Below are positions 4,487 to 49,264 of a stretch of DNA of 64,000 nucleotides, piece after piece. The stretch is from Acidovorax sp. NCPPB 3576 (lineage in GTDB: Bacteria > Pseudomonadota > Gammaproteobacteria > Burkholderiales > Burkholderiaceae_C), in the NCBI RefSeq assembly GCF_028473605.1, contig NZ_CP097267.1, forward strand, positions 5,200,501 to 5,264,500, in the 5' to 3' direction. The translations under genes were made by a program, and so were the position numbers. Positions within the stretch are counted from its first letter, which is position 1. Each line of letters starts with the position of its first letter. The notes beneath the pieces were generated by a model that worked only from the letters and a program-made list of their open reading frames with translations, was not told the DNA's origin and did not search any database.

Positions 4487-5478
4487 TCAGTGGCCAATCC
4501 CAGTTTGTCGATCAACGGTTTCCAGACCGAAGTATCGCGTGCCGCCCAGGTGCGCGCATCGCCCGGCACGGAGGGCGCCAGCGTCACGTTCATGGCCTCC
4601 ATCCGCGCGCGGTAGGACGCATCGCCGCTGCGGCATTTCTCGGTCGCGGCATTGAGCGTGCCCAGCAGCGCGGGCGGCGTGCCGGCCCGGGCCACCACGG
4701 CGATCCACGCGGTGCGGGCCAGGTCCTTGGCGGCCGGCAGGGCCTCGCCGATCGAGGGCACATCCGGCAGCAGGGGCGAGCGCTGCGGCGCGAACACCGC
4801 CAGGGGCACGAGCTTGCCCGACCTGGCATGCGGCGCAGCCGTGCCGATGACCAGCGTCATCGCCTGGATCTGCTGGCCCATGAGGGCGGTGAGGCCGGCG
4901 CCCTCGCCCACGAAGGGCACGTGCGTGCCGGACACGCCCATGCGATCGAGCAGTGCCGACGTCAGCAGGTGCGCCGGGCTGCCCTTGCCGGGCGAGCCGA
5001 AGTCGAGCCCGCCGGGATGGGCCCTGGCCTGGTCCGCCAGTTGCGCCAGCCGCGTGATGCCCAGCCCCGCCGGCACGGCCAGCACCAGCGGCGTGCTGCC
5101 CAGCACCGCCACGCTGTCGAAGTCGTGCAGCGGGTCGTAGGGCGGCTGCTTGTAGACGTAAGGCGTGATGGTCATCTGCGACATGCCGATGGTCATCAGC
5201 GTGTAACCGTCGGCCGGCTGCGACTTGAGCGCATTGACGGCCAGGATGCCGTTGGCCCCCGGCTTGTTCTGGACCACCACGGGCTGGCCCATCTCCCGCG
5301 CGGCGCAGTCGGCCCAGGCGCGCGTCATGGCATCGGACGCGCTGCCCGGCGGCTGCTGGGCGATGAGCTGGATCGGCTTGGCGGGATAGGCCGCGGTCTG
5401 GGCGCCCGCCAGAAAGGCCAACGATGCGAGCGCGGCGCCGGCCAGGGCGCGCAGTGCGCCTGTGCGTTGGGGGGTCAT
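4483..5478 (-). CDS. Bug-family tripartite tricarboxylate transporter receptor
   Basis: A 331-residue periplasmic solute receptor of the Bug/TctC family (PF03401), hugely expanded in comamonads and Bordetella. The signal peptide is MTPQRTGALRALAGAALASL with cleavage near AGAQ. The mature start is YPAKPIQLIAQQPPGSASD, the family hallmark, and VVVQNKPGANG follows. The usual TctA/TctB membrane partners are absent here, as for most orphan Bug genes. It lies between a TetR regulator and an esterase and is probably coexpressed with both. The ligand is likely a carboxylate. Confidence 0.9.
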   Translation of the reverse strand: MTPQRTGALRALAGAALASLAFLAGAQTAAYPAKPIQLIAQQPPGSASDAMTRAWADCAAREMGQPVVVQNKPGANGILAVNALKSQPADGYTLMTIGMSQMTITPYVYKQPPYDPLHDFDSVAVLGSTPLVLAVPAGLGITRLAQLADQARAHPGGLDFGSPGKGSPAHLLTSALLDRMGVSGTHVPFVGEGAGLTALMGQQIQAMTLVIGTAAPHARSGKLVPLAVFAPQRSPLLPDVPSIGEALPAAKDLARTAWIAVVARAGTPPALLGTLNAATEKCRSGDASYRARMEAMNVTLAPSVPGDARTWAARDTSVWKPLIDKLGLATE

Positions 5479-5554
5479 GGTGTGTCTCCTTTTGTCGTGA
5501 TAGATGCCGGGTGCACGCGGCGCGGAACGTGCCTGGGCCAAGGCACGGCGCCGG

Positions 5555-6241
5555 TCATGCCGGGCGCGGGGGCCTGGCGCGGGGTCGGGGTTTCGATGCC
5601 GGAGCGCCCGCGCGGGCCCGGCCGTCGCAGCGCTGCGCGATGAGCGTGGCCAGGCAATCGAGCTGCGCAGCGCCAGCCTCGTCGGCCGGGCGGAACATCT
5701 CCAGCAGGCCCAGGCCGCGCAGGGTGGAGAACACCAGCCCCACGAACCCCGCGCGCTCCGGGTCGCCCGCCAGTTCGGGGAACGCCTCGAAGAACCCCGC
5801 ATGCATGCGCGCATTGAGGTCCTGGCGCAGCGCGGCGATGTGCGCCACGACCTCGGGCTGGTTGCGGCTGCCCAGGTAGATGTTCCACGCCGCCATGAAG
5901 CGCGGCTGCGCATAGACGATGTGCCACGCGGCCTGCACGAAATGCTGCGCGCGCTGCAGCGCCGGCAGCGATGCGGCGGGCCACAGCAAGCCCTCGCGGT
6001 CCTGCGCTGCGATCAGCTCGCTGAGCACGCGCATCATCAGCACGGCCTTCGACTCGAAATGGTGCTGCACCGCCCCCGACGTCATTCCCGCCGTGCGGGC
6101 CAGCTCGTGGATCGACATCGCCTCGAAGCTGCGCGACTGGATGACCTCGATGGCGGTGGCGATCAGGTGCTGCTGCGTGGCGGCGCTGCGCTCGGCATGG
6201 GTGCGGCTGGGGGCAGCGCGGCGGGGCGTGCGATGGATCAT
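5555..6241 (-). CDS. TetR-family transcriptional regulator
   Basis: A 228-residue TetR-like repressor. The helix-turn-helix lies at ~25-65 (TAIEVIQSRSFEAMSIHELA, then TSGAVQHHFESKAVLM). The C-terminal ligand domain is followed by an Arg/Pro-rich tail. It begins the minus-strand unit with the Bug receptor and esterase, 76 bp upstream of the receptor. It is divergent from the FAD-linked dehydrogenase at 6377. A clear inverted repeat in the divergent gap (6257-6276) is the likely operator, so it may control both directions. Confidence 0.88.
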   Translation of the reverse strand: MIHRTPRRAAPSRTHAERSAATQQHLIATAIEVIQSRSFEAMSIHELARTAGMTSGAVQHHFESKAVLMMRVLSELIAAQDREGLLWPAASLPALQRAQHFVQAAWHIVYAQPRFMAAWNIYLGSRNQPEVVAHIAALRQDLNARMHAGFFEAFPELAGDPERAGFVGLVFSTLRGLGLLEMFRPADEAGAAQLDCLATLIAQRCDGRARAGAPASKPRPRARPPRPA

Positions 6242-38105: not shown

Positions 38106-39581
38106 TTGCGCCCGCCCCTCGATTCGTCCCAGCCCACCCCGGGCCCGTCGTCGGAACCACCCCTGGTGGTGGACCTGGACGGCACGCTCATCCTGACGGA
38201 CATGCTGCACGAATCGTCGCTGCAGCTGCTGCGGGACGGGCCGTGGCGCGCGATGGCCCTGCCCGTGTGGCTGGCCCGGGGCAAGGCGGCGCTCAAGCAG
38301 GAGATCGGGCAGCGGGTGCAGATGGACGTGGCCACGCTGCCCTACAACGTGCCGTTCGTGCAGTGGCTGCGCAACCAGCACGCGGCCGGGCGGCGCACCG
38401 TGCTGTGCACGGCCTCCGACCGCTCGGTGGCGCAGGCCATCGCCGCCCACCTGGGGTGCTTCGACCAGGTCATGGCCAGCGATGGGGCCACCAACCTGGC
38501 CGGGGCCGCCAAGGCCGCCGCGCTCGTGCAGGCCTTCGGCGAGCGCGGCTTCGACTACGCGGGCAATTCGCAGGCGGACGTGCCGGTGTGGCAGTCCGCG
38601 CGCTCGGCCATCGTGGTCAATGCCTCGGGGGCCGTCACCCGGCGGGCCGAGGCGCAAGGCAACGTGGCCGAACGTTTCCCCCGCGAGCCCCTCGGCCTCA
38701 GGCCCTGGCGCAAGGCGCTGCGGCTGCACCAGTGGCTCAAGAACCTGCTGCTGTTCGTGCCGCTGGTGGCCGCGCACCGATTGGCCGACGGCGAGGCCTG
38801 GGGCGACCTGCTGGTGGCCTTCCTGGCCTTCAGCCTGTGCGCCTCGTCGGTCTATGTGGCCAACGACCTGCTCGATCTGGAGAGCGACCGCCGGCATCCC
38901 CGCAAGCGCCTGCGGCCCTTCGCCTCGGGCGCGCTGGCGGCCTGGCAGGGCGTGGCCCTGGTGCCGGTGCTCACGGCGGCGAGCTTCTTGCTGGCCTGGC
39001 AGGTGGGACAGGGGTTTTTCGGCTGGCTGCTGGGGTACTTCGCCATCACCTGGGCGTATTCGCTGGCGCTCAAGCGCTGGGTGCTGGTCGATTGCATCGC
39101 GCTGGCGGTGCTCTACACGCTGCGCATCGTGGCGGGGGCCTATGCCATCACGCAGCCGCTGTCGTTCTGGCTGCTGGCGTTCTCGGGCTTTCTCTTCCTG
39201 TCGCTGGCGTTCGTCAAGCGCTATGCCGAGCTGATGGTGCAGCAGGCCGCGGGCAAGACGCAGGCGCATGGCCGCGGCTACCTCACGTCGGATGCGCCCA
39301 TCGTGCAGAACCTGGGCATCGCCGCCGGCTACACGGCCGTGGTGGTGCTGGCGCTTTACCTCAACAGCGAATCGGTGCTGCTGATGTACCGCGCGCCGGA
39401 GATGATCTGGGCCGCCGTGCCCGTGATGGTGTTCTGGGTGAGCTGGATGTGGCTGCGCGCGGTGCGCGGGCAGATGCACGACGACCCGCTGGTCTTCGCC
39501 TTCAAGGACCGCGCCAGCCTGGCCGCGGGCGCCCTGTTCAGCCTGGCGATGGTCGCCGCCGCACTGGGGCTGCCGTGGTAG
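38106..39581 (+). CDS. HAD phosphatase-UbiA prenyltransferase fusion (polyprenyl-phosphate pentose-phosphate transferase type)
   Basis: About 491 residues. The N-terminal HAD domain has VVDLDGTLILTDML and CTASDRSVAQAIA, then SDGATNLAGAAKA. From ~210 there is a nine-helix UbiA domain with WLKNLLLFVPL and the Asp-rich NDLLDLESDRRHPRKRLRP and KRYAEL. In mycobacteria a UbiA member (Rv3806c) joins phosphoribosyl pyrophosphate to decaprenyl phosphate and a phosphatase removes the 5-phosphate. This fusion would combine both. The start is uncertain: TTG 38106 is chosen, GTG 38010 is possible. TACAAT at 38025-38030 may be a -10. Confidence 0.82.
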   Translation: MRPPLDSSQPTPGPSSEPPLVVDLDGTLILTDMLHESSLQLLRDGPWRAMALPVWLARGKAALKQEIGQRVQMDVATLPYNVPFVQWLRNQHAAGRRTVLCTASDRSVAQAIAAHLGCFDQVMASDGATNLAGAAKAAALVQAFGERGFDYAGNSQADVPVWQSARSAIVVNASGAVTRRAEAQGNVAERFPREPLGLRPWRKALRLHQWLKNLLLFVPLVAAHRLADGEAWGDLLVAFLAFSLCASSVYVANDLLDLESDRRHPRKRLRPFASGALAAWQGVALVPVLTAASFLLAWQVGQGFFGWLLGYFAITWAYSLALKRWVLVDCIALAVLYTLRIVAGAYAITQPLSFWLLAFSGFLFLSLAFVKRYAELMVQQAAGKTQAHGRGYLTSDAPIVQNLGIAAGYTAVVVLALYLNSESVLLMYRAPEMIWAAVPVMVFWVSWMWLRAVRGQMHDDPLVFAFKDRASLAAGALFSLAMVAAALGLPW

Positions 39582-40888
39582 CCGTGCGCTCCTGGGGCCG
39601 CCTGAGCGCCGACGACCACGATCTGCGCATCCTGGCCGAGCGGCCGCTGGCGCACCTGCCGCGCGAGCCCGGCCAGCACGGGCTCGCGTTCGGCATGGGC
39701 CGCAGCTACGGCGACGTGTGCCTGAACCCCGGCGGCGCGCTGTGGTCGCTGCGCGGGCTGGACCGCTTCATCGCCTGGGACGAGGCCACCGGCGAGCTGA
39801 CCTGCGAGGCCGGCATGCTGCTGCGCGACATCCAGCGCACGTTCGTTCCGCGCGGCTGGATGCTGCCCGTGACCCCGGGCACCCAGCTGGCGACGGTGGG
39901 CGGCGCCATCGCCAACGACGTGCACGGCAAGAACCACCATGGAAATGGCTCCTTCGGCGACCATGTGCAGGAGCTGCGGCTGCTGCGCACCGACGGGCTG
40001 TCGATCCGCTGCGGCCCGCAGCTGCATCCCGACTGGTTCGCCGCCACGGTGGGCGGCCTGGGCCTGACCGGCGTGGTCACCCAGGCCACGCTGCGGCTGC
40101 GGCGCGTGCCCGGCGCGTGGCTGGACACCGAGACCCTGCCCTACGGGTCGCTGGGCGAGTTCTTCGCACTGGCCGATGCCTCCGAGGCCGGCTGGGAGCA
40201 CACCGTCTCGTGGATCGACTGCCTCTCGGGTGCCCGGGCCGGCGCCACGCGCGGCATCTTCCTGCGCGCCAACGCCGCCGCCCCCGAATTCCAGCACGGC
40301 GCCGCACCGAAAGACCGCCAGCGCACCGTGCCGTTCGCGCCGCCCGTCTCGCTCGTCAACCGCCTGAGCCTGCGCCCCTTCAACGCGGCGTACTACCACC
40401 TGAACCGCCGCCGCGCCGGCCGCGCGCTGCAGCATTACGAGCCGTTTTCCTACCCGCTGGACAACCTGCAGGAATGGAACCGTATCTACGGCCGCCGGGG
40501 CTTCTACCAGTACCAGTGCGTGGTGCCCCGCCCGCACGGCCCCGACGCCGTGGGCGCGCTGCTGCGCGAGATCACCGCGTCGGGCCAGGGCAGCTTCCTG
40601 GGCGTGCTCAAGACCTTCGGCGACCGCGAATCGGTGGGCCTGCTGAGCTTTCCGCAGCCGGGCGTCACGCTGGCGCTCGACTTTCCCAACCTGGGCGACC
40701 GCACGCTGCGGCTGTTCGACCGGCTCGACGCCGTCGTGGCCGAGGCCGGCGGGCGCCTGTACCCGGCCAAGGACGCGCGCATGCCGCGCGCCCTGTTCGA
40801 GGCCGGCTACCCGAAGCTCGCCCAATTCCTTCCGTACCGCGACCCGAACATCCGGTCCGCGATGTCGCGACGCCTGATGGGCGACTGA
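39575..40888 (+). CDS. FAD-dependent DprE1-like oxidoreductase
   Basis: A 437-residue flavoprotein closely patterned on decaprenylphosphoryl-ribose 2'-oxidase. FAD motifs: GMGRSYGDVCLNPGG, PVTPGTQLATVGGAIANDVH and GKNHHGNGSFGDHV, where the His-containing GKNHH block matches the flavin-linked region of DprE1. It should oxidise the C2 hydroxyl of a polyprenyl-phospho-ribose. The start is probably GTG 39575, which overlaps the UbiA stop; GTG 39584 is the alternative. It is adjacent to a DprE2-like gene, as in mycobacteria. Confidence 0.88.
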   Translation: MVAVRSWGRLSADDHDLRILAERPLAHLPREPGQHGLAFGMGRSYGDVCLNPGGALWSLRGLDRFIAWDEATGELTCEAGMLLRDIQRTFVPRGWMLPVTPGTQLATVGGAIANDVHGKNHHGNGSFGDHVQELRLLRTDGLSIRCGPQLHPDWFAATVGGLGLTGVVTQATLRLRRVPGAWLDTETLPYGSLGEFFALADASEAGWEHTVSWIDCLSGARAGATRGIFLRANAAAPEFQHGAAPKDRQRTVPFAPPVSLVNRLSLRPFNAAYYHLNRRRAGRALQHYEPFSYPLDNLQEWNRIYGRRGFYQYQCVVPRPHGPDAVGALLREITASGQGSFLGVLKTFGDRESVGLLSFPQPGVTLALDFPNLGDRTLRLFDRLDAVVAEAGGRLYPAKDARMPRALFEAGYPKLAQFLPYRDPNIRSAMSRRLMGD

Positions 40889-40935
40889 CCTGCGGCTTTT
40901 TCTCCAAGACAAGAACGAACGAACTCACCGCCAAC

Positions 40936-41712
40936 ATGCAGAACAACAACAACGCCAGCAACGCACCGCAGACCCTCGTGATCGTCGGCGCCACCTCGCT
41001 GATCGCGCAGCACTGCGCACGCCAATGGCTGCAGGCCGGCGGCATCGGCCGCGTGGTGCTCGTGGGGCGCGATGCGGCCCGGCTGCAGGGCGTGGCCGAC
41101 GACCTGCAGGTGCGCCAGCCCCAGGCCCGCATCGAGGTGCTGGCCGGCGATGTGACCCAGGCGGCGTCCATCGCCGCGCTGGTGCAGCACCTGGCGGCCC
41201 AGGGCGTGCCGGACACGGTGCTCATCGCCCATGGCAGCCTGCCCGACCAGCCCCAGTGCCAGAGCGATCTGGCCAGCGCCGAGCAGGCCATGGTGGTCAA
41301 CGGCCTGTCGCCCGTGCTGTGCGCGGAGGCGTTCGCCGGCGCGATGCAGGTGGCGGGGCGCGGCACGATCGGCATCATCGGCTCGGTGGCCGGCGACCGG
41401 GGCCGCAAATCCAACTACGTGTACGGCGCCGCCAAGGGACTGGTGGAGCGCTATGCCGAAGGGCTGCAGCACCGCCTGGCGGCCACGAACGTGAAGGTGG
41501 TGCTGGTCAAGCCCGGCCCCACCGACACGCCGATGACGGCGCACCTGAAGGCGCGCGGCGCCAAGCTCGCCAGCGTGGAGCAGGTGGCCCAGGCCGTGGT
41601 GCGCGGCATGGCCCGCGGCACCCCCGTGGTGTATGCCCCGGCGAAATGGGCGCTCATCATGGCCGTGATCCGCAACCTGCCGCGCATGGTCTTCCACAAG
41701 ATGGACATCTGA
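40936..41712 (+). CDS. Short-chain dehydrogenase, DprE2-like
   Basis: A 258-residue SDR. Cofactor motif: IVGATSLIAQHCARQWLQAG. Active-site Ser in IGIIGSVAGDRG and YxxxK in YVYGAAKG are present. The C-terminal hydrophobic piece (WALIMAVIRNLPRMVF) could dock to the membrane as in DprE2. It would reduce the 2'-keto intermediate to the arabinose epimer. It lies 47 bp after the DprE1-like gene; the first residues (MQNNNNASNA) are unusually Asn-rich. Confidence 0.88.
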   Translation: MQNNNNASNAPQTLVIVGATSLIAQHCARQWLQAGGIGRVVLVGRDAARLQGVADDLQVRQPQARIEVLAGDVTQAASIAALVQHLAAQGVPDTVLIAHGSLPDQPQCQSDLASAEQAMVVNGLSPVLCAEAFAGAMQVAGRGTIGIIGSVAGDRGRKSNYVYGAAKGLVERYAEGLQHRLAATNVKVVLVKPGPTDTPMTAHLKARGAKLASVEQVAQAVVRGMARGTPVVYAPAKWALIMAVIRNLPRMVFHKMDI

Positions 41713-41715
41713 TCC

Positions 41716-43440
41716 ATGCCGTGGACCCCTGAACGCCGCCGCCTCTGGGCGGCGGTGGCCCTTGCGGGCTACGCAACGCTCTTTGCGCTGGTGACGGCCG
41801 TGGCGGCCTGGCGCACCTTCACGCCCGTGCCGATCTGGGACATGTGGGGCGCGATGGAGTTCTACGCCGACGTGCGCGATGGCGCCGGCTGGCAGGCCTG
41901 GTGGCGGCTCTTCAACGAGCACCGCATCGTGCTGTCCAAGGCCTTGTTCTGGATGGAATACCGCTGGTTCGGCGGCACCCAGGCGTTCCTGATCGCGGCC
42001 AACTACCTGCTGGTGGCGGGCAGCATCGCCACCTTCTGGGCCTTCCTGAGGGCGCGCCTGGGGCCGATGACCCGCACGGCGTCGGTGGCGGTGCTGTCCC
42101 TGCTGTCCGTCTGGCTGCTGTCGTGGGTGCAGCAGGAAAACCTCACCTGGGCGTTCCAGAGCCAGTTCTTCCTGGCCCAGTGGCTGCCGCTGGCCGGGCT
42201 GTACTGCCTGTACCGCGCCACGCAAGCGCCGCAGGGCACAGGGTGGCACAGCGGGCGCTGGTTCGCTGGCGGCTGCGCCCTGGGCGTGCTGAGCATCGGC
42301 ACCATGGCCAACGGCATCATGGCGCTGCCCATGATGGCGCTTTACGCCGCCGTGGTGCGCATGGAATGGCGCCGCGTCGCATTGCTGGCCGTGCTGGCCG
42401 CCGCGGGCGTTGGCATCTACATGGCGGACTTCGTCGCGCCCACGCCCCGGCCCGGCCTGCTGGCCATGCTCCAGACCCGGCCGCTGGGCCTGCTGCAATA
42501 CACGCTGCAGTACCTGGGCAGCCCGTTCCAGCACCTGGCGGGCAAGATGGAGACGATGTGGATCAGCCAGGCCTTCGGCGTGCTGTTCACCGTGCTGGCG
42601 CTGGCCCGGCTGGTGCCCGCGCTGCGCGCCCCGCGCACGCATGCGCTGGAGCTGTCGCTGCTCACCTTCGTGGCCTTCGTGGCGGGCATCGCCTTCGCCA
42701 CCGCCAGCGGCCGCCTGCAGTTCAGCATGGAAGGCTCGCTGGCCAGCCGCTACACCACGCCCACGATGATGGCCTGGGCGGCACTCGCCGTGCTGTATGC
42801 GCCGCGCATGATGGCCCTGCGCGGCCTGGCCCGCGCCGGGGCCGCCGTGCTGCTGGTGGCGGTGCTGGCGCAGATGCTGTCGGTGCAGATGCGCGAAACC
42901 AAACGCAGCGATGTCCCCCACCTGCGCATGACCGGCGCGCTGGCGCTGGCGATGGGGGTGCACGACGAGCGGCGCATCGGCATGCTGATCTGGGACCGGG
43001 CCCTGGGCGAGCGCATCGTCGCCAAGGCCCGCCAGCAGGGCCACTCGATCTTCGGCCGGCCGCCGCTCGCCGACGCCGCCACGGCCCTGGGCTCGCACAC
43101 CGACGTGCCGCCCGCCCGCTGCACGGCCTTCGTGGACTGGGTGCAGCGCGTGCAGGGCGACCCGCGCTTTGTCTCGGTGAGCGGCGCGCTGCTGCCCTCC
43201 GAAGGCGATGCGCCGCCGCCATCGATGCGCCTCGTCGCGCCCGATGGCACCGTGGTGGGCCTGGGCGTGCCCCACCGCTGGCGCAAGCTGAGCGCGCCCG
43301 GCGGCCCCCATGCGCCCGCACGCTACCTGACCTTCACCGCCTACCTGCAGGCCGCGCCCGAGGCGCTGCCCACCGCCGTGACCCTGACCGCACCCGGCAC
43401 CGACTGCTCGGTGGCCCTGCAGATACCGGCGCCGCAATGA
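41716..43440 (+). CDS. Multi-span GT-C-like glycosyltransferase or membrane protein
   Basis: A 574-residue protein with about eleven predicted helices. The first large loop after helix 1 has [20 protein letters not shown], an acidic periplasmic loop as in GT-C enzymes that use polyprenyl-phosphate sugars. After the last helix (~400) there is a ~170-residue soluble domain with Cys residues. Given the neighbours it may transfer the polyprenyl-linked pentose to an acceptor in the periplasm. The family is not securely named. It starts three bases after the DprE2-like stop. Confidence 0.7.
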
Positions 43441-43472
43441 GCGCCCCGAACCCGACGAGAAAAGCCAACACC

Positions 43473-44411
43473 ATGAAGAACGCCAAAATCATCCTGCCGG
43501 GAGGCGCCGGCCTCGTGGGCCAGAACCTCGTGGCCCACCTGAAGCTGCACGGCTATCACAACCTCGTCGTGCTGGACAAGCACACGAGCAACCTGGCCAT
43601 CCTGCGGCAGGTGCACCCCGACATCGTGGCCGAGGACGCCGACCTGGCCGAGCCCGGCGCGTGGGAGCGCCACTTCGAGGGCGCGGACGTGGTGGTCATG
43701 CTGCAGGCGCAGATCGGCGCGCCGCAGGCCGACCCGTTCGTGCGCAACAACCTCACCTCCACCGGCCGCATCCTCGATCTGATCCAGCGCCACCGCATTG
43801 CGCAGACCGTGCACATCAGCTCCTCGGTGGTCGAGTCGGTCGCCCAGGACCACTACACCGAGACCAAGCGCGCGCAGGAAAAAATGGTGCTGGACAGCGG
43901 CATTCCCTGCGTGGTGCTGCGGCCCACGCTGATGTTCGGCTGGTTCGACCGCAAGCACCTGGGCTGGCTGTCGCGCTTCATGCGCAAGGTGCCGGTGTTC
44001 CCGATTCCGGGCAGCGGCCGCTACATGCGCCAGCCGCTGTACGCGGCGGATTTCTGCCGCATCATCGTGCGCTGCATCGAGGAGCGCCGCGTGGGCGGCG
44101 TGTTCAACATCACGGGCCTGGAGAAGGTGGACTACATCGACATCATTCGCCAGATCAAGGCCGCTACGGGCGCGGGCGCGTGGATCGTGAAGATCCCCTA
44201 CGGCCTTTTCTCCCTGCTGCTCAAGGTGTGGGCGCTGTTCGACAAGGACCCGCCGTTCACCGCCGACCAGCTCAAGGCGCTGGTGGCCCACGACGAGTTC
44301 GAGGTGATCGACTGGCCCGGCATCTTCGGCGTGCGCGCCACGCCCTTCGCCGAGGCCATCCACGAAACCTTCAACCACCCGGAATACAGCCGCGTGGTGC
44401 TGGAGTTCTGA
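43473..44411 (+). CDS. NAD-dependent epimerase/dehydratase
   Basis: A 312-residue extended SDR. NAD motif: [21 protein letters not shown]. The catalytic Tyr/Lys pair appears as [13 protein letters not shown] with SSSVVES before it. C-terminal [20 protein letters not shown] is typical of sugar-nucleotide epimerases. A second possible ATG at 43437 overlaps the previous stop and would add 12 residues; 43473 fits the family better. The stop overlaps the next start. Confidence 0.86.
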
Positions 44412-45757
44412 TGAACGTGCAGACCCCCTCTCCTTCCGCATCCGCCCCCACCACAGCCGCACCGGGCCAGCGCATCGCCGTGCTGGGCGCCGGCCCCATG
44501 GGCCTGGCCGTGGCCTACCAGCTCGCGCGCGACGGCCACCGGCCCGTGGTCTTCGAGGCCGACGACCGCGTGGGCGGCATGACCGCGATGTTCGACTTCG
44601 ACGGCCTGCCCATCGAGCGCTACTACCACTTCCACTGCACCTCCGACCACGCCTTCCTGCAGATGCTCGACGAGCTGGGCCTCAAGGACAAGATGCGCTG
44701 GCGAGAGACGCGCATGGGCTACTGGTTCCAAAAACGCCTGCAGCCCTGGGGCAACCCGGTGGCGCTGCTGCGCTTTCAGGGACTGGGCCTGGTCGCCAAG
44801 TTCCGCTACGGCCTGCACGCGTTCCTGTCCACGAAGCGCACCGACTGGAAGCCGCTGGACGGCGAAGAGGCCACGGGCTGGATCCGCCGCTGGGTGGGCA
44901 AGGAGGCCTACGAGGTGCTGTGGCGGCGCCTGTTCGACTACAAGTTCTACGACCATGCCGGCAACCTGTCGGCCGCGTGGATCTGGAGCCGCATCCGCCG
45001 CATCGGGCGCTCGCGCTACAGCCTCATGCGCGAAAAGCTCGGCCACCTCGATGGCGGCTCGGCCACGCTGCTGGACGGCATGGTGGCCGACATAAAGCGC
45101 CACGGCGGCGAGATCCGCCTGTCCACCCCCGTCACCCGCGTGCGCATGGACGCCACGCGCGTGCAGGGCGTGGAGACCGCCCAGGGCTTCGAGGCCTTCG
45201 ACAAGGTGGTGAGCACCATCCCCCTGCCCTACGTGCCGCGCACCATGCCCGACCTGCCGCCCGCGCTGCTGGCGCAGTACGGCGCGCTGCAGAACATCGC
45301 CGTGGTCTGCGTGATCGCCAAGCTGCGCCAGCCCCTCACCGGCAACTTCTGGCTCAACGTGAACGATCCGGACATGGACATTCCCGGCCTGGTCGAATAC
45401 AGCAACCTGCGCCCGCTGGCGGAGTCGGTGGTGTACGTGCCGTTCTACATGCCCGGCGAGCACCCCAAATTCGCCGAGCCCGACGCGGCCTTCCTCGACA
45501 AGGTGCGCCGCTACCTGAAGGCCATTAACCCGAAGCTGCAGGACAGCGACTTCCTGGCCCTGCGCGCCAGCCGCTACCGCTACGCCCAGCCCATCTGCCC
45601 GCCCAACTACCTGGACAGCCTGCCGCCCGTGCAGCTGCCCGTGCGCGGCCTGTGGGTGGCCGACACGTCCTACTACTACCCCGAGGACCGCGGCATCTCC
45701 GAGAGCATCGGCTTCGGGCGCCAGATGGCCGCGCAGGCGGCCGCGGCACCGGTCTAG
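44411..45757 (+). CDS. FAD-dependent oxidoreductase (amine-oxidase/UDP-galactopyranose-mutase-like)
   Basis: A 448-residue flavoprotein. The dinucleotide motif [20 protein letters not shown] is followed by [20 protein letters not shown]. Central [20 protein letters not shown] and the C-terminal FAD segment [20 protein letters not shown] match sugar-cluster flavoproteins often annotated as protoporphyrinogen-oxidase-like. In this cluster it may act as a mutase or redox enzyme on a sugar; the reaction is unknown. The start overlaps the epimerase stop (TGATG). Confidence 0.82.
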
Positions 45758-45764
45758 GCGCGGC

Positions 45765-46175
45765 ATGCTCGCGCAGTTCCGCTCCCGGCAGTTCGTGGCC
45801 TTCCTGGTGACGGGCGGCGTGGCCGCGCTCGCCAACTTCATCGCGCGCATCGTGCTCAACCAGTGGATGCCGTTTTCCTACGCCGTGGTACTGGCCTACG
45901 GCGTGGGCATGGTCACGGCCTTCCTGCTGGCGCGCGCCTTCGTGTTCCAGGGCAGCCAGCAGTCGGTGCGCAAGTCCGCCGCGTTCTTCGTGCTGGTGAA
46001 CCTCGTGGCGGTGGCGCAGACCTGGGCCGTGAGCCTGCTGCTGGCGCGCCAGGTGCTGCCGGCCCTGGGCGTGACCGCCTTCGTGCCCGAGATCGCCCAT
46101 GCCGTGGGCGTGGCCGTGCCGGTGTTCACGAGCTACCTGGGCCACAAGCGCTGGTCCTTCGCCGACCGCGCATGA
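45765..46175 (+). CDS. GtrA-family membrane protein
   Basis: A 136-residue four-helix GtrA/DPMS3-like protein. The motifs FVAFLVTGGVAALANFIAR and VVLAYGVGMVTAFLLARAFV with the terminal SYLGHKRWSF are typical. Members move or bind polyprenyl-linked sugars; the mycobacterial GtrA protein Rv3789 lies beside dprE1-dprE2 in a similar cassette. Its stop overlaps the next start (ATGA). Confidence 0.9.
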   Translation: MLAQFRSRQFVAFLVTGGVAALANFIARIVLNQWMPFSYAVVLAYGVGMVTAFLLARAFVFQGSQQSVRKSAAFFVLVNLVAVAQTWAVSLLLARQVLPALGVTAFVPEIAHAVGVAVPVFTSYLGHKRWSFADRA

Positions 46176-47116
46176 AGCCCGGCCACGCCGTCGCCGCGGC
46201 CGGGGCCTGCACGGCGGCCTACGTGGCCGCCCTGGTGTGGGCCGACGCGCGCAACCAGGTTTTCGCGCAACTGCCGCAGGTGCTCGCGTGGATGCCCTCG
46301 ATGGCGGCGATCGCCTTCACCTCGTACCTGCTGCGCTACCTGCGCTGGCGCTGGCTGCTGGCGCGCGCGGGGCACGCCGTGCCCTGGGGCGCGGGCTTTC
46401 TGGCCTACCTCTCGGGCTTTGCCTTCACCGCCACGCCGGGCAAGGTGGGCGAGCTGGTGCGTGTGCGCTACTTCGCGCGCGCCGGCGTGCCGGCGGCGCG
46501 CACCGTCTCGGCTTTCGTGTACGAGCGTGCGTTCGACCTGCTGTGCGTGGTGCTGCTGGCGGCGCTGGCCATCCCCGCCCTGCCGCTGTTCGCGGTGCTG
46601 GTGGCGTTCGTGGCGGGCATGATCGGCGCCGTCGTGCTGGTGGCGGCACGGCCCGCATGGCTGCTGCGCGGTGCCGCCCGGCTGCGCCGCCGCGGCTGGC
46701 CGCGACTGTCGCGTGCGGTGCGGGCCCTGGCGCTGGGATTGGCCGGCTGCAGGGCGTGGCTGCACCCGCTGGATTGGGGGCTTTCGCTGGGCCTGGGCCT
46801 GGCCGCATGGGGCCTGGTGGCGCTGTCGTTCGCCTGGCTGCTGTACGGGCTGGGCATCGGCCTGCCCTGGCGCGATGCCGCCTCCCTCTACCCCACCGCC
46901 ATGCTGGCCGGCGCCGCGTCCATGCTGCCGGCCGGCATCGGCACCACCGAGGCCACGCTGGTCGCCCTGCTGGCGCTGCACGCCGTGCCGCTGGGCCTGG
47001 CCACGCTGGCGGCCGTGGGCATCCGCGTGGCCACGCTGTGGTTCGCCGTGCTGTGCGGCTTCGTGGCCATCGGGGTGCTGGAGCACCAGCGCGCGCGGGG
47101 CGAAGCCGCCAGGTGA
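46172..47116 (+). CDS. AglD/LPG-synthase-TM-like flippase (UPF0104)
   Basis: A 314-residue protein with about eight helices, of the lysylphosphatidylglycerol synthase transmembrane family (PF03706). Conserved parts: YLSGFAFTATPGKVGELVRV, AFVYERAFDLLCVV and PAGIGTTEATLVALL. Members lack a catalytic domain and are thought to translocate lipid-linked substrates. It closes the polyprenyl-pentose cluster. The last helices end close to the stop at 47116. Confidence 0.88.
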   Translation: MKPGHAVAAAGACTAAYVAALVWADARNQVFAQLPQVLAWMPSMAAIAFTSYLLRYLRWRWLLARAGHAVPWGAGFLAYLSGFAFTATPGKVGELVRVRYFARAGVPAARTVSAFVYERAFDLLCVVLLAALAIPALPLFAVLVAFVAGMIGAVVLVAARPAWLLRGAARLRRRGWPRLSRAVRALALGLAGCRAWLHPLDWGLSLGLGLAAWGLVALSFAWLLYGLGIGLPWRDAASLYPTAMLAGAASMLPAGIGTTEATLVALLALHAVPLGLATLAAVGIRVATLWFAVLCGFVAIGVLEHQRARGEAAR

Positions 47117-47134: not shown

Positions 47135-49102
47135 TCAGCCGATGGCCGGCTCCATTGCAGGTTCTGCAGGCCGCAGCTTGGCACGGCCTTCCACCAGCGC
47201 TTCGGCCGTGATGGAGGCCTTGTGGCGGTGCGCGGTCGCCGCGTCCGACAGGATCTTCCACAGCGCATCGTTGCCGGGCGACATGTGGTCCAGGATGCCG
47301 CTGGCGATCAGGTCGGCCGGGTTCTGCAGGCCCGACGTCTGCGCGCCCGGTCGCGTGTAGCCCGCCCCCAATTGCTCCAGTTCCGTGTTGGACAACGGCC
47401 GGGCCTCGCCGCCCCGGGCGGTCGATCCGTCGAAGAACTCGGGGTGGAACTGCAAGCCGATCAGCGGTGCCCGCGGCTGGGACGATTCGACCGCCATGAT
47501 GGCCCGCCAGGCGGTTTCGCCCCCTTCCGAGGGAATGGTCCGGCGCAGCGAGGTGCTCAGGTGCGGCCGGCCTTCCGGTGGGTCGATCACGGCCTGGTGG
47601 TGGTACACGGCCGCGCGGATGTCCTGCAGCGCGTTGCCGAAGACGCCGACGCCGTTCTCCGCACCCTCGGTGGCCTGCGCCTGCCCGGCTTCTTCGCCCC
47701 GGTCGTTGTCGAGCGTGCGAACACCGACCTGGTGCCCCACGTGCTGCTGCAGCGCCGCGCCGAAAAACACATTGGTCATCTGAAAGCCCCGGCAGATCGC
47801 CATCAGGGGCACGCCGTGGTGAAAGCACTGGTGCAGCAGGCCCATTTCGAGCACGGATCGGCGGTAGTCCCCGCTCCAGTCCGTCTTCGGCTCCGGTGTC
47901 TGGCCATACAGGTGCGGCGAAACGTCCTCGCCGCCGGGGAGAACAACGGAGTCCACGTGCCGGGCCAGGATCTCGGCCTTGGCCAGGATCTGCGCGATCT
48001 TCGGCAGGGCTTCGGGGTTCGCCAGGGCATCGATCACGAGGCGTTGCGGCAAGGATTGGTCGCTACCCGGTTGCGAGGCCAGTTTTTTGAGGTGCTTGTC
48101 AACCTCGGCATCGACATCCTTCGCCTGCAGCGAGGCGGCCCGCATCTCGACCCGCAGGGGCAAGGTGCCCGCCACGGCCGCGAGCTTGGCCCCCACGCGC
48201 GGGACGGTGATGCCCCGCGACTCATGGGAGACCAGCGTGGCCGTGGTGGGCCGGGTGAGGCCGGCTGTCGCGTCGGACACCGCGTCGATGATGAAGCGCC
48301 CCTTCGTGCCCAGGAACACGGTGTCGGTCAGGTCGGACGGTCCTTTGGTGGCGGACGCTTCGATCCGCGTACCCTCTGCCACCGAGGCGCAGAGGAAGTG
48401 CGTGCCGGGCATCTTCACGCCCGTGAACACGCAATCGCCCGTCAGTTGCGCATCCTCGAAACTGCAGTGGTGCAGCTCGCTGTCTTCGAAGCGAACGCCG
48501 CTCAGTGCCGCGTGGAGAAACATCGTCTCCTCGAATTCGCAGCGCTTGAAAGCGGTGTTGCGCAGCGAGGCGTTCGCCAACGACACGCTTTCGAACCGGC
48601 AGCTTTCGAACCGGCTGCCTTCGATGTGCGTGTCGGCCAGGGAGCTGGCATCGAATCGGCAGCGCTTGAAATCCACGCCCGACAGATCCCACCCCCGCAA
48701 AGCCGGACCACCCTCGGCCAACCGCGCGCCCTCCAGCACATGGGAATGGCCCGCAGCGGCCAACGCCGCCGCGAGCGACGGCTTGCCACTGCCTGCTGTG
48801 CCTGCCGGTTGACTGGCACCGGCCTTCAGGATCTGTTGCAGCAGCGCGGTGTCCGCCGCGCCCACGTCGAGTGGTGCGCTTTGCGGCGCCGCAAGGCCCG
48901 CGTTGACCGGCAGCGCCGACAGCGGCGCGCGCGACCGCAAGGCTTCGGCGCCGAAGGAGCGGGCTTGCCTGGCCGGCAGGTCCGGATGGCCGGATGGCCC
49001 GGCCGCAGCAGGCCCGCCTTTGCTGACAGCCGGCGCGCCATCGCCTCCGGTGGATTCGGATTGCCGGTGCTTCACATCGGCGGCATTCACTGACACTTTC
49101 AT
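47135..49102 (-). CDS. Pentapeptide-repeat and class I glutamine amidotransferase (C26) fusion, putative effector
   Basis: A 655-residue protein. Residues 1-115 are Ser/Ala/Pro/Gly-rich and disordered, like a type III secretion leader. Residues ~134-260 form a pentapeptide-repeat solenoid (A(D/N)LXX-like units: SGVDFKRCRFDASSLADTHI). Residues ~345-600 are a C26/PuuD-like amidotransferase with PGGEDVSPHLYG, nucleophile Cys438 in ICRGFQMTNV, and His553/Glu555 in GLQFHPEFF. The catalytic triad is complete. The ATG at 49102 is preceded by GGGAGG. No PIP box was found upstream. A gamma-glutamyl hydrolase acting on host or bacterial amides is inference. Confidence 0.8.
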   Translation of the reverse strand: MKVSVNAADVKHRQSESTGGDGAPAVSKGGPAAAGPSGHPDLPARQARSFGAEALRSRAPLSALPVNAGLAAPQSAPLDVGAADTALLQQILKAGASQPAGTAGSGKPSLAAALAAAGHSHVLEGARLAEGGPALRGWDLSGVDFKRCRFDASSLADTHIEGSRFESCRFESVSLANASLRNTAFKRCEFEETMFLHAALSGVRFEDSELHHCSFEDAQLTGDCVFTGVKMPGTHFLCASVAEGTRIEASATKGPSDLTDTVFLGTKGRFIIDAVSDATAGLTRPTTATLVSHESRGITVPRVGAKLAAVAGTLPLRVEMRAASLQAKDVDAEVDKHLKKLASQPGSDQSLPQRLVIDALANPEALPKIAQILAKAEILARHVDSVVLPGGEDVSPHLYGQTPEPKTDWSGDYRRSVLEMGLLHQCFHHGVPLMAICRGFQMTNVFFGAALQQHVGHQVGVRTLDNDRGEEAGQAQATEGAENGVGVFGNALQDIRAAVYHHQAVIDPPEGRPHLSTSLRRTIPSEGGETAWRAIMAVESSQPRAPLIGLQFHPEFFDGSTARGGEARPLSNTELEQLGAGYTRPGAQTSGLQNPADLIASGILDHMSPGNDALWKILSDAATAHRHKASITAEALVEGRAKLRPAEPAMEPAIG

Positions 49103-49264
49103 CGCATGTACCTCCCTGTCCGCCGGCCTCCCTGCGCGGCCCAACGCCACCAGTGGAGCCATGCCGACGGGGCGCCGATTCTGAACAGGGACCGCACCCG
49201 TGCAAAGCGCGGATTTCGCATATCGACCAACGCAATGCGCTGGTGCCATGCGGCGGGGAGAGCG

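Follow-up and report, generated by a model that had tools for sequence, protein, structure and literature searches.

The eight-gene cluster considered here raises the question of which sugar it prepares and for which glycan. The cluster lies in a window of 64,000 nucleotides, i.e. the whole stretch of DNA analysed, which covers positions 5,200,501 to 5,264,500 of contig NZ_CP097267.1 in the single-contig genome (5.41 Mb) of Acidovorax sp. NCPPB 3576. At 38106–47116 of the window, on the plus strand, the genes, here called g1 to g8, run tightly head to tail, as the first-pass annotation of this DNA had placed them. Since neighbouring genes overlap or are at most 47 bases apart, the arrangement suggests that g1–g8 are transcribed as one unit. 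The same annotation saw in them a polyprenyl-phospho-arabinose cassette of mycobacterial type, and thus an oddity in a betaproteobacterium. The pathway type, represented by g1–g3, is borne out, as are flippase candidates and a membrane glycosyltransferase of the GT-C class, but the oddity is not. DprE1 homologs occur in 53 of the 398 genomes of the phylum that were sampled, the pathway class has been published (PMC11127046), and g1 has, by domain description, the make-up of Citrobacter ORF15 and not that of the mycobacterial enzyme.

Judging from homology, the operon very probably builds lipid-attached D-arabinose for decoration of the cell surface, and this core is a known and widespread pathway type. 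What sets the cluster apart is the conserved g5-g6-g7 module, which some of the loci combine with a particular GT-C type. The most unusual point, which the first-pass annotation passed over, is that the pair of a short-chain dehydrogenase/reductase (SDR) and a flavoprotein, g5 and g6, forms a conserved addition that goes with a GtrA subfamily of its own. These two extra enzymes may convert the arabinose to another sugar.

The core enzymes g1–g3

Comparison of sequences and structures assigns g1–g3 to their families. The first gene, g1 (38106–39581), encodes a HAD phosphatase fused to a UbiA-type polyprenyl-phosphate phosphoribosyltransferase (PPPRS; PF12710 and PF01040) and scores 687 bits against the NCBIfam HAD-UbiA family NF006088. 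The start at 38106 given in the first-pass annotation is a TTG codon and is unproven, the reading frame staying open farther upstream. The product matches the solved M. tuberculosis enzyme DPPRS (PDB 8j8j) with an E value of 1e-26. Ten of the 11 residues listed for Rv3806c in PMC10994848 as contacts of phosphoribosyl pyrophosphate (PRPP) or Mg are kept (R22, K28, Y70, N73, D77, K87, R90, Y138, K143, and Y157), and the sole change is at Q135, which is T here. The HAD domain (PF12710) spans residues 21–161, with the nucleophile-Asp motif DLDGT at residues 23–27.

The gene g2 (39578–40888), which overlaps g1 by 4 bases, encodes a DprE1-type flavin adenine dinucleotide (FAD) oxidase with the FAD_binding_4 domain. 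Residues 22–423 are aligned with the solved DprE1 (PDB 4aut; E 2e-69), and the DprE1 motif quoted in the first-pass annotation (GKNHHGNGSFGDH) is present. Residues H116 and K118 (in HGKNHH) and K398 (in AKDAR; the Lys418 position), which we take to have the roles of their counterparts in DprE1, are kept in 93 of 93 rows of an alignment that includes the query and near copies. The gene g3 (40936–41712) encodes a DprE2-type SDR reductase that matches the solved DprE2 (PDB 21gq_C; E 1e-27) and carries the SDR motif YGAAK with the upstream Ser. Both g2 (327 bits against a cut-off of 500; NF053785) and g3 (159 bits against 250; NF053786) score below the NCBIfam equivalog cut-offs, and they are therefore homologs of DprE1 and DprE2, not NCBI equivalogs.

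The expected product of g1–g3 is lipid-linked D-arabinofuranose. The expectation comes from the homology and from the prototype in PMC11127046, where the HAD-UbiA protein is shown to make polyprenyl-phospho-ribose from PRPP and to dephosphorylate it, farnesyl-phospho-ribose having m/z 435 in the assay, and where candidate systems for glycans containing arabinofuranose (Araf) are described to carry DprE1 and DprE2 homologs.

The position of Cys387 in DprE1 should be noted. In M. tuberculosis this residue is bound covalently by benzothiazinones. Its replacement with Ser or Ala leads to resistance, as stated in PMC4608729. The corresponding residue in g2 is Ala, as it is in 87 of the 93 aligned rows; three of the others have Ser and three have Thr, whereas Cys is found in none. 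The first-pass annotation proposed sensitivity to benzothiazinones as a check; that check is unsound, because with Ala at this position the outcome is uninformative on whether the pathway is present. Benzothiazinones are thus unsuitable for probing proteobacterial DprE1 enzymes of this kind.

Comparison with known systems

Pentofuranose systems of three components, namely PPPRS-PRP, a flippase, and a GT-C, are described for Citrobacter youngae O1/O2 (Kelly et al. 2024, PMC11127046). All three kinds of components are found in the present cluster, as the PPPRS g1, the flippase candidates g7 and g8, and the GT-C g4. By description, the HAD-UbiA fusion, the C-terminal β-rich domain of the GT-C, and the presence of epimerases that set the pentose are also the same as in this prototype. 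However, the flippase is a MATE protein there and a GtrA protein (with an LPG_synthase_TM protein) here, and the g5–g6 pair is extra here. PMC11127046 refers to its supplement for systems of greater complexity that have several candidate epimerases or GT-Cs, so that part of what distinguishes the present cluster may be covered there.

In the mycobacterial decaprenyl-phosphoryl-arabinose pathway (Rv3806c, Rv3807c, DprE1/DprE2, Rv3789, and Emb/Aft), the chemistry is the same as that predicted for g1–g3, and the fold of g4 matches, among others, two of its enzymes, EmbB and AftA. In contrast to that pathway, the phosphatase of the present cluster is fused and of the HAD class, Cys387 is replaced with Ala, and g5–g6 are present. 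The D-Araf pilin pathway of Pseudomonas paraeruginosa (PSPA7_6245-6251 and TfpW) is described as a Gram-negative case of a UbiA-type gene with associated D-Araf genes (PMC12369383, PMC11127046); likened by description, it differs in its pilin acceptor and separate phosphatase. A further likeness by description is that to Azorhizobium noeCHOP, of which noeC, noeH, and noeO are described to resemble mycobacterial genes for the D-arabinose precursor (PMC2443382), though the acceptor there is the Nod factor.

The g5–g6 pair and its distribution

The gene g5 (43473–44411) encodes an NAD-dependent epimerase-like SDR with 74 bits to Epimerase PF01370. It carries the motifs GGAGLVG and YTETK, the Y and K of the latter being conserved in 95% or more of 34 rows, the query among them, and its weak family matches are mostly sugar-nucleotide epimerases and dehydratases. 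The gene g6 (44411–45757) encodes an oxidoreductase of the FAD amine-oxidase fold (Amino_oxidase PF01593), with 569 bits to NF005560. The first-pass annotation likened g6 to UDP-galactopyranose mutase (UGM). The fold class is indeed shared, but the name was rejected, as none of the five Pfam families matched by g6 is GLF and the fold is closer to phytoene desaturase and protoporphyrinogen oxidase. The structure scores are 31.7 for protoporphyrinogen oxidase and 29.2 for UGM, with amine oxidases close behind, all within one very broad fold class. No literature on PRK07233/NF005560 was found. Likewise, no description of the g5–g6 pair or module was found in the literature searched, which did not reach subscription papers and supplements, that of PMC11127046 included.

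The co-occurrence sample of 398 genomes includes the genome of the window and was not chosen by DprE1. At a threshold of E 1e-60, g6 is found in nine of these genomes, eight of which also have DprE1 (Fisher 5e-7); without the two members of the genus that hold both, the count is six of seven (Fisher 2e-5). The ninth genome, the sole one without DprE1, has a 32% homolog. The pair therefore goes with the DprE1 pathway. No g5 or g6 match is found in the five stretches from the five genomes that have a g1 match and no DprE1 match. The arrangement goes beyond chance: among 80 fetched DprE1 loci, g6 is near DprE1 in 20, and 18 of these keep the order g1-g2-g3-g5-g6-g7 on one strand (the contig of one of the 18 begins after g1). 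The same order is found in all four plasmid records that were opened, from eight plasmid records with g6. The gene signature of HAD-UbiA, DprE1, DprE2, SDR, FAD, and GtrA genes can thus be followed from rhizobial plasmids to Burkholderiales.

The flippase candidates g7 and g8

The product of g7 (45765–46175) belongs to the GtrA family (PF04138) and, according to the tree, in which very long branches set the two GtrA groups apart, to a distinct subfamily. It has only 27 bits to NF037976 gtrA_1, compared with 186 bits for one scanned member of the other GtrA type. A g7-type GtrA is present in all 33 loci with g5–g6 (window included), whereas 37 of the 38 pair-less loci in which a GtrA was found have the other type and one has the g7 type; the remaining 22 of the 60 pair-less loci, in which no GtrA was found, are left out of the count.

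The second flippase candidate is g8 (46172–47116), an LPG_synthase_TM membrane protein with 134 bits to PF03706, whose gene overlaps g7 by 4 bases. Not all of the related loci have it. In L071, L076, L078, and L080, a g8-like protein (31–39% identical) is encoded just upstream of the HAD-UbiA gene, not at the cluster end.

The transferase g4

The gene g4 (41716–43440) has no Pfam or NCBIfam match. Its modelled structure is that of a GT-C membrane glycosyltransferase, with ArnT as well as EmbB and AftA among the fold matches, and the C-terminal domain is a β-sandwich that may bind a glycan. No second copy of g4 is found in its own genome. Of 28 loci that carry the g5–g6 pair, 18 have a g4-type GT-C, and none of 40 readable loci without the pair has one. 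This count leaves out the window locus and four plasmid loci, hence 28 pair loci rather than 33, and sets aside 20 of the 60 pair-less loci, where less than 5 kb is readable past DprE1. In two of the 20 (L005 and L042), a g4-type GT-C is present on a contig that ends some 2.1 kb beyond DprE1. Among the 10 pair loci without a g4 match, L021 and L111 encode proteins that cluster more loosely with g4. Three large tandem proteins are encoded between DprE2 and g5 in L021 (12071–17341), the first two of which cluster with g4; the first and third were scanned and have no Pfam match. A single donor may serve more than one transferase there.

Proposed pathway and alternatives

With confidence slightly above even, we favour the reading that the operon directs the cytoplasmic synthesis of a lipid-linked pentofuranose donor, which is modified by g5–g6 and used outside the membrane on a surface glycan. 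The UbiA domain of g1 would transfer phosphoribose from PRPP to polyprenyl phosphate, and the HAD domain would remove the 5-phosphate. Then g2 and g3 would invert C2 via a 2-keto intermediate to give polyprenyl-phospho-D-arabinofuranose. The second SDR/flavin pair, g5 and g6, would then alter the lipid-linked sugar, most likely by C3 inversion or by another oxidation and reduction. The donor would be flipped across the membrane by g7, possibly with g8, and the sugar would be transferred outside the membrane by g4, to a polysaccharide more probably than to a pilin. We infer that g5–g6 modify the lipid-linked pentose before export. Such a change of the donor would be expected to go with flippase and transferase types of its own, as is observed for the flippase and, in some of the loci, for the transferase.

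As to the product, it is possible, though we hold this only tentatively and at less than an even chance, that g5–g6 serve as a second redox pair converting polyprenyl-phospho-arabinofuranose into a lipid-linked pentofuranose outside the published set of ribose, xylose, and arabinose. An example would be lyxofuranose, in which a C3 inversion is added to the C2 inversion by DprE1/E2, or a keto- or deoxy-pentofuranose. A passage of PMC11127046 states that lyxofuranose is not in any solved carbohydrate structure. No paper with such a sugar is among the literature matches listed. If the second redox pair is real, it would come with its own flippase and transferase types and be spread across alpha-, beta-, and gammaproteobacteria. 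The basic pathway is already known; the g5–g6 extension predicts a sugar donor of which no description was found in the literature searched.

The DprE1 tree speaks for this link between g5–g6 and the GtrA type, though weakly. On the best tree, a minimum of 13 changes of the g5–g6 label is needed among rows whose state is definite. Well-supported branches hold only three independent pairs, however, so that the sign test (p 0.25) gives weak support. When all rows are used and undecided rows are counted as pair-less, the tree needs 17 changes, six of which are forced by well-supported branches. These trees and the GtrA tree leave out L113, L115, L116, and L131 (near copies from the genus of the window) as well as L106 and L112 (no DprE1 in the stretch). 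Two observations weigh against the reading we favour. First, g5–g7 adjoin each other, so that they could move together. Second, a g7-type GtrA without g5–g6 is present in L067, close to the contig end, and in L174 (G194). In the latter, the HAD-UbiA gene adjoins a g7-type GtrA gene (43% identical), and the stretch has no DprE1, g5, or g6 match; it therefore counts against a strict link between the GtrA type and g5–g6.

This last observation bears on a different explanation, in which the donor is plain polyprenyl-phospho-D-Araf and g5–g6 make or modify another component of the glycan, e.g. the acceptor sugar. The g7-type GtrA, being found beside HAD-UbiA without DprE1, need not be specific for a g5–g6 product, and the 45 of 53 DprE1 genomes that lack g6 indicate that g1–g3 function without the pair. 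We regard this explanation as somewhat unlikely. Against it, the pair is located within the cluster, its one occurrence without DprE1 among the 398 genomes is the 32% homolog, and the loci that carry it have a GtrA type and, in some cases, a GT-C type of their own. It is very improbable, in our estimation, that g6 acts on the isoprenoid chain (e.g. by saturation or isomerisation of the α-unit) with g5 as redox partner, which would place plain Araf on a modified carrier. In that case the g7-type GtrA and g4-type GT-C would accept the altered polyprenyl carrier. The likeness of g6 to phytoene desaturase says little here, as the fold class is so broad, and the weak matches of g5 point mostly to enzymes of sugar nucleotides. 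We know of no precedent for an SDR and FAD pairing that acts on an isoprenoid chain, a point for which no search was made.

The last step can be weighed separately from the donor. An acceptor protein, i.e. a type IV pilin as in Pseudomonas paraeruginosa, has a precedent in the pilin D-Araf system with a ubiA-type gene described in PMC12369383, and yet appears quite unlikely for g4. The C-terminal β-sandwich of g4 resembles the case of the prototype ORF12, which is described to have a C-terminal glycan-binding module (PMC11127046), and some pair-bearing relatives have genes of polysaccharide type nearby, although no search for pilin genes was made. Among these neighbours, L053 has a Wzy_C protein, L021 and L107 have glycosyltransferases, and L163 has genes for pseudaminic acid. 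Because of the C-terminal β domain and these neighbour genes, a polysaccharide is the more likely acceptor. The locus L080, which has DprE1 but lacks the pair, encodes a Wzz-family protein. Nothing of use was found in the literature on Acidovorax surface sugars. The favoured reading also has a practical side, since genomic clusters of the Araf type can be grouped according to their probable product from the GtrA type and the g4-type GT-C.

Gain or loss within the genus

Within the genus, g6 is present in 14 of 17 genomes (own included), and the three genomes without g6 also lack DprE1. In all three, the site is empty, with 83 to 266 bases from the methyltransferase match to the parB match. The insertion site was inspected in part of the 14 cassette-bearing genomes. 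The gap is filled by the cassette alone in G013 and by the cassette and a peptidase C26 protein gene in both G006 and the window. In G007, the cassette and parB are about 12 kb apart, with other DNA in between, and in G001 they are on separate contigs. The leaf isolate Acidovorax sp. Leaf160 also carries the cassette (locus L006). The cassette has thus been gained or lost as a block in the genus. Composition was considered as a sign of recent arrival and rejected as uninformative, since the GC content in 2-kb steps from 38 to 48 kb (0.68–0.73) is inside the range of the whole window (0.66–0.76).

Neighbouring genes and related loci

The gene upstream of the cluster, which is read from the opposite strand, weakly matches methyltransferases. 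Downstream, also on the opposite strand (47135–49249), is the gene of a 704-residue protein that consists of a pentapeptide-repeat region and a peptidase C26/glutamine amidotransferase-type domain. The genes beyond it, on the opposite strand, presumably are parB and then parA. The 704-residue protein is 66–70% identical in L115 and L116, compared with 84–99% for the other matched genes there, and has no match in L117; judging from these identities, it is a fast-changing protein. A scan for promoter-like sites (none; 0.3 expected) and terminator-like sites (3; 3.2 expected) was uninformative.

Other arrangements of the core genes are found among the related loci. In L177 (G227), a DprE2-like SDR (35%) comes immediately after HAD-UbiA and the stretch holds no DprE1 match; this locus may be a one-enzyme epimerase system. 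In L007, L017, L020, L023, L054, L055, and similar loci, a second architecture is found, in which the gene of a UbiA protein of about 294 residues is transcribed in the direction opposite to, and away from, GtrA-DprE1-DprE2. Some of these have a small neighbouring gene; the one scanned, in L007, belongs to DUF212, the divergent PAP2 family, and its product is likely to be a phosphatase. A UbiA-type relative (34% over 46% of the query) is also encoded at 5057–5746 of MT837543.1, an unannotated record from human faeces and the only one of the phage collection that matches g1 at E 1e-10.

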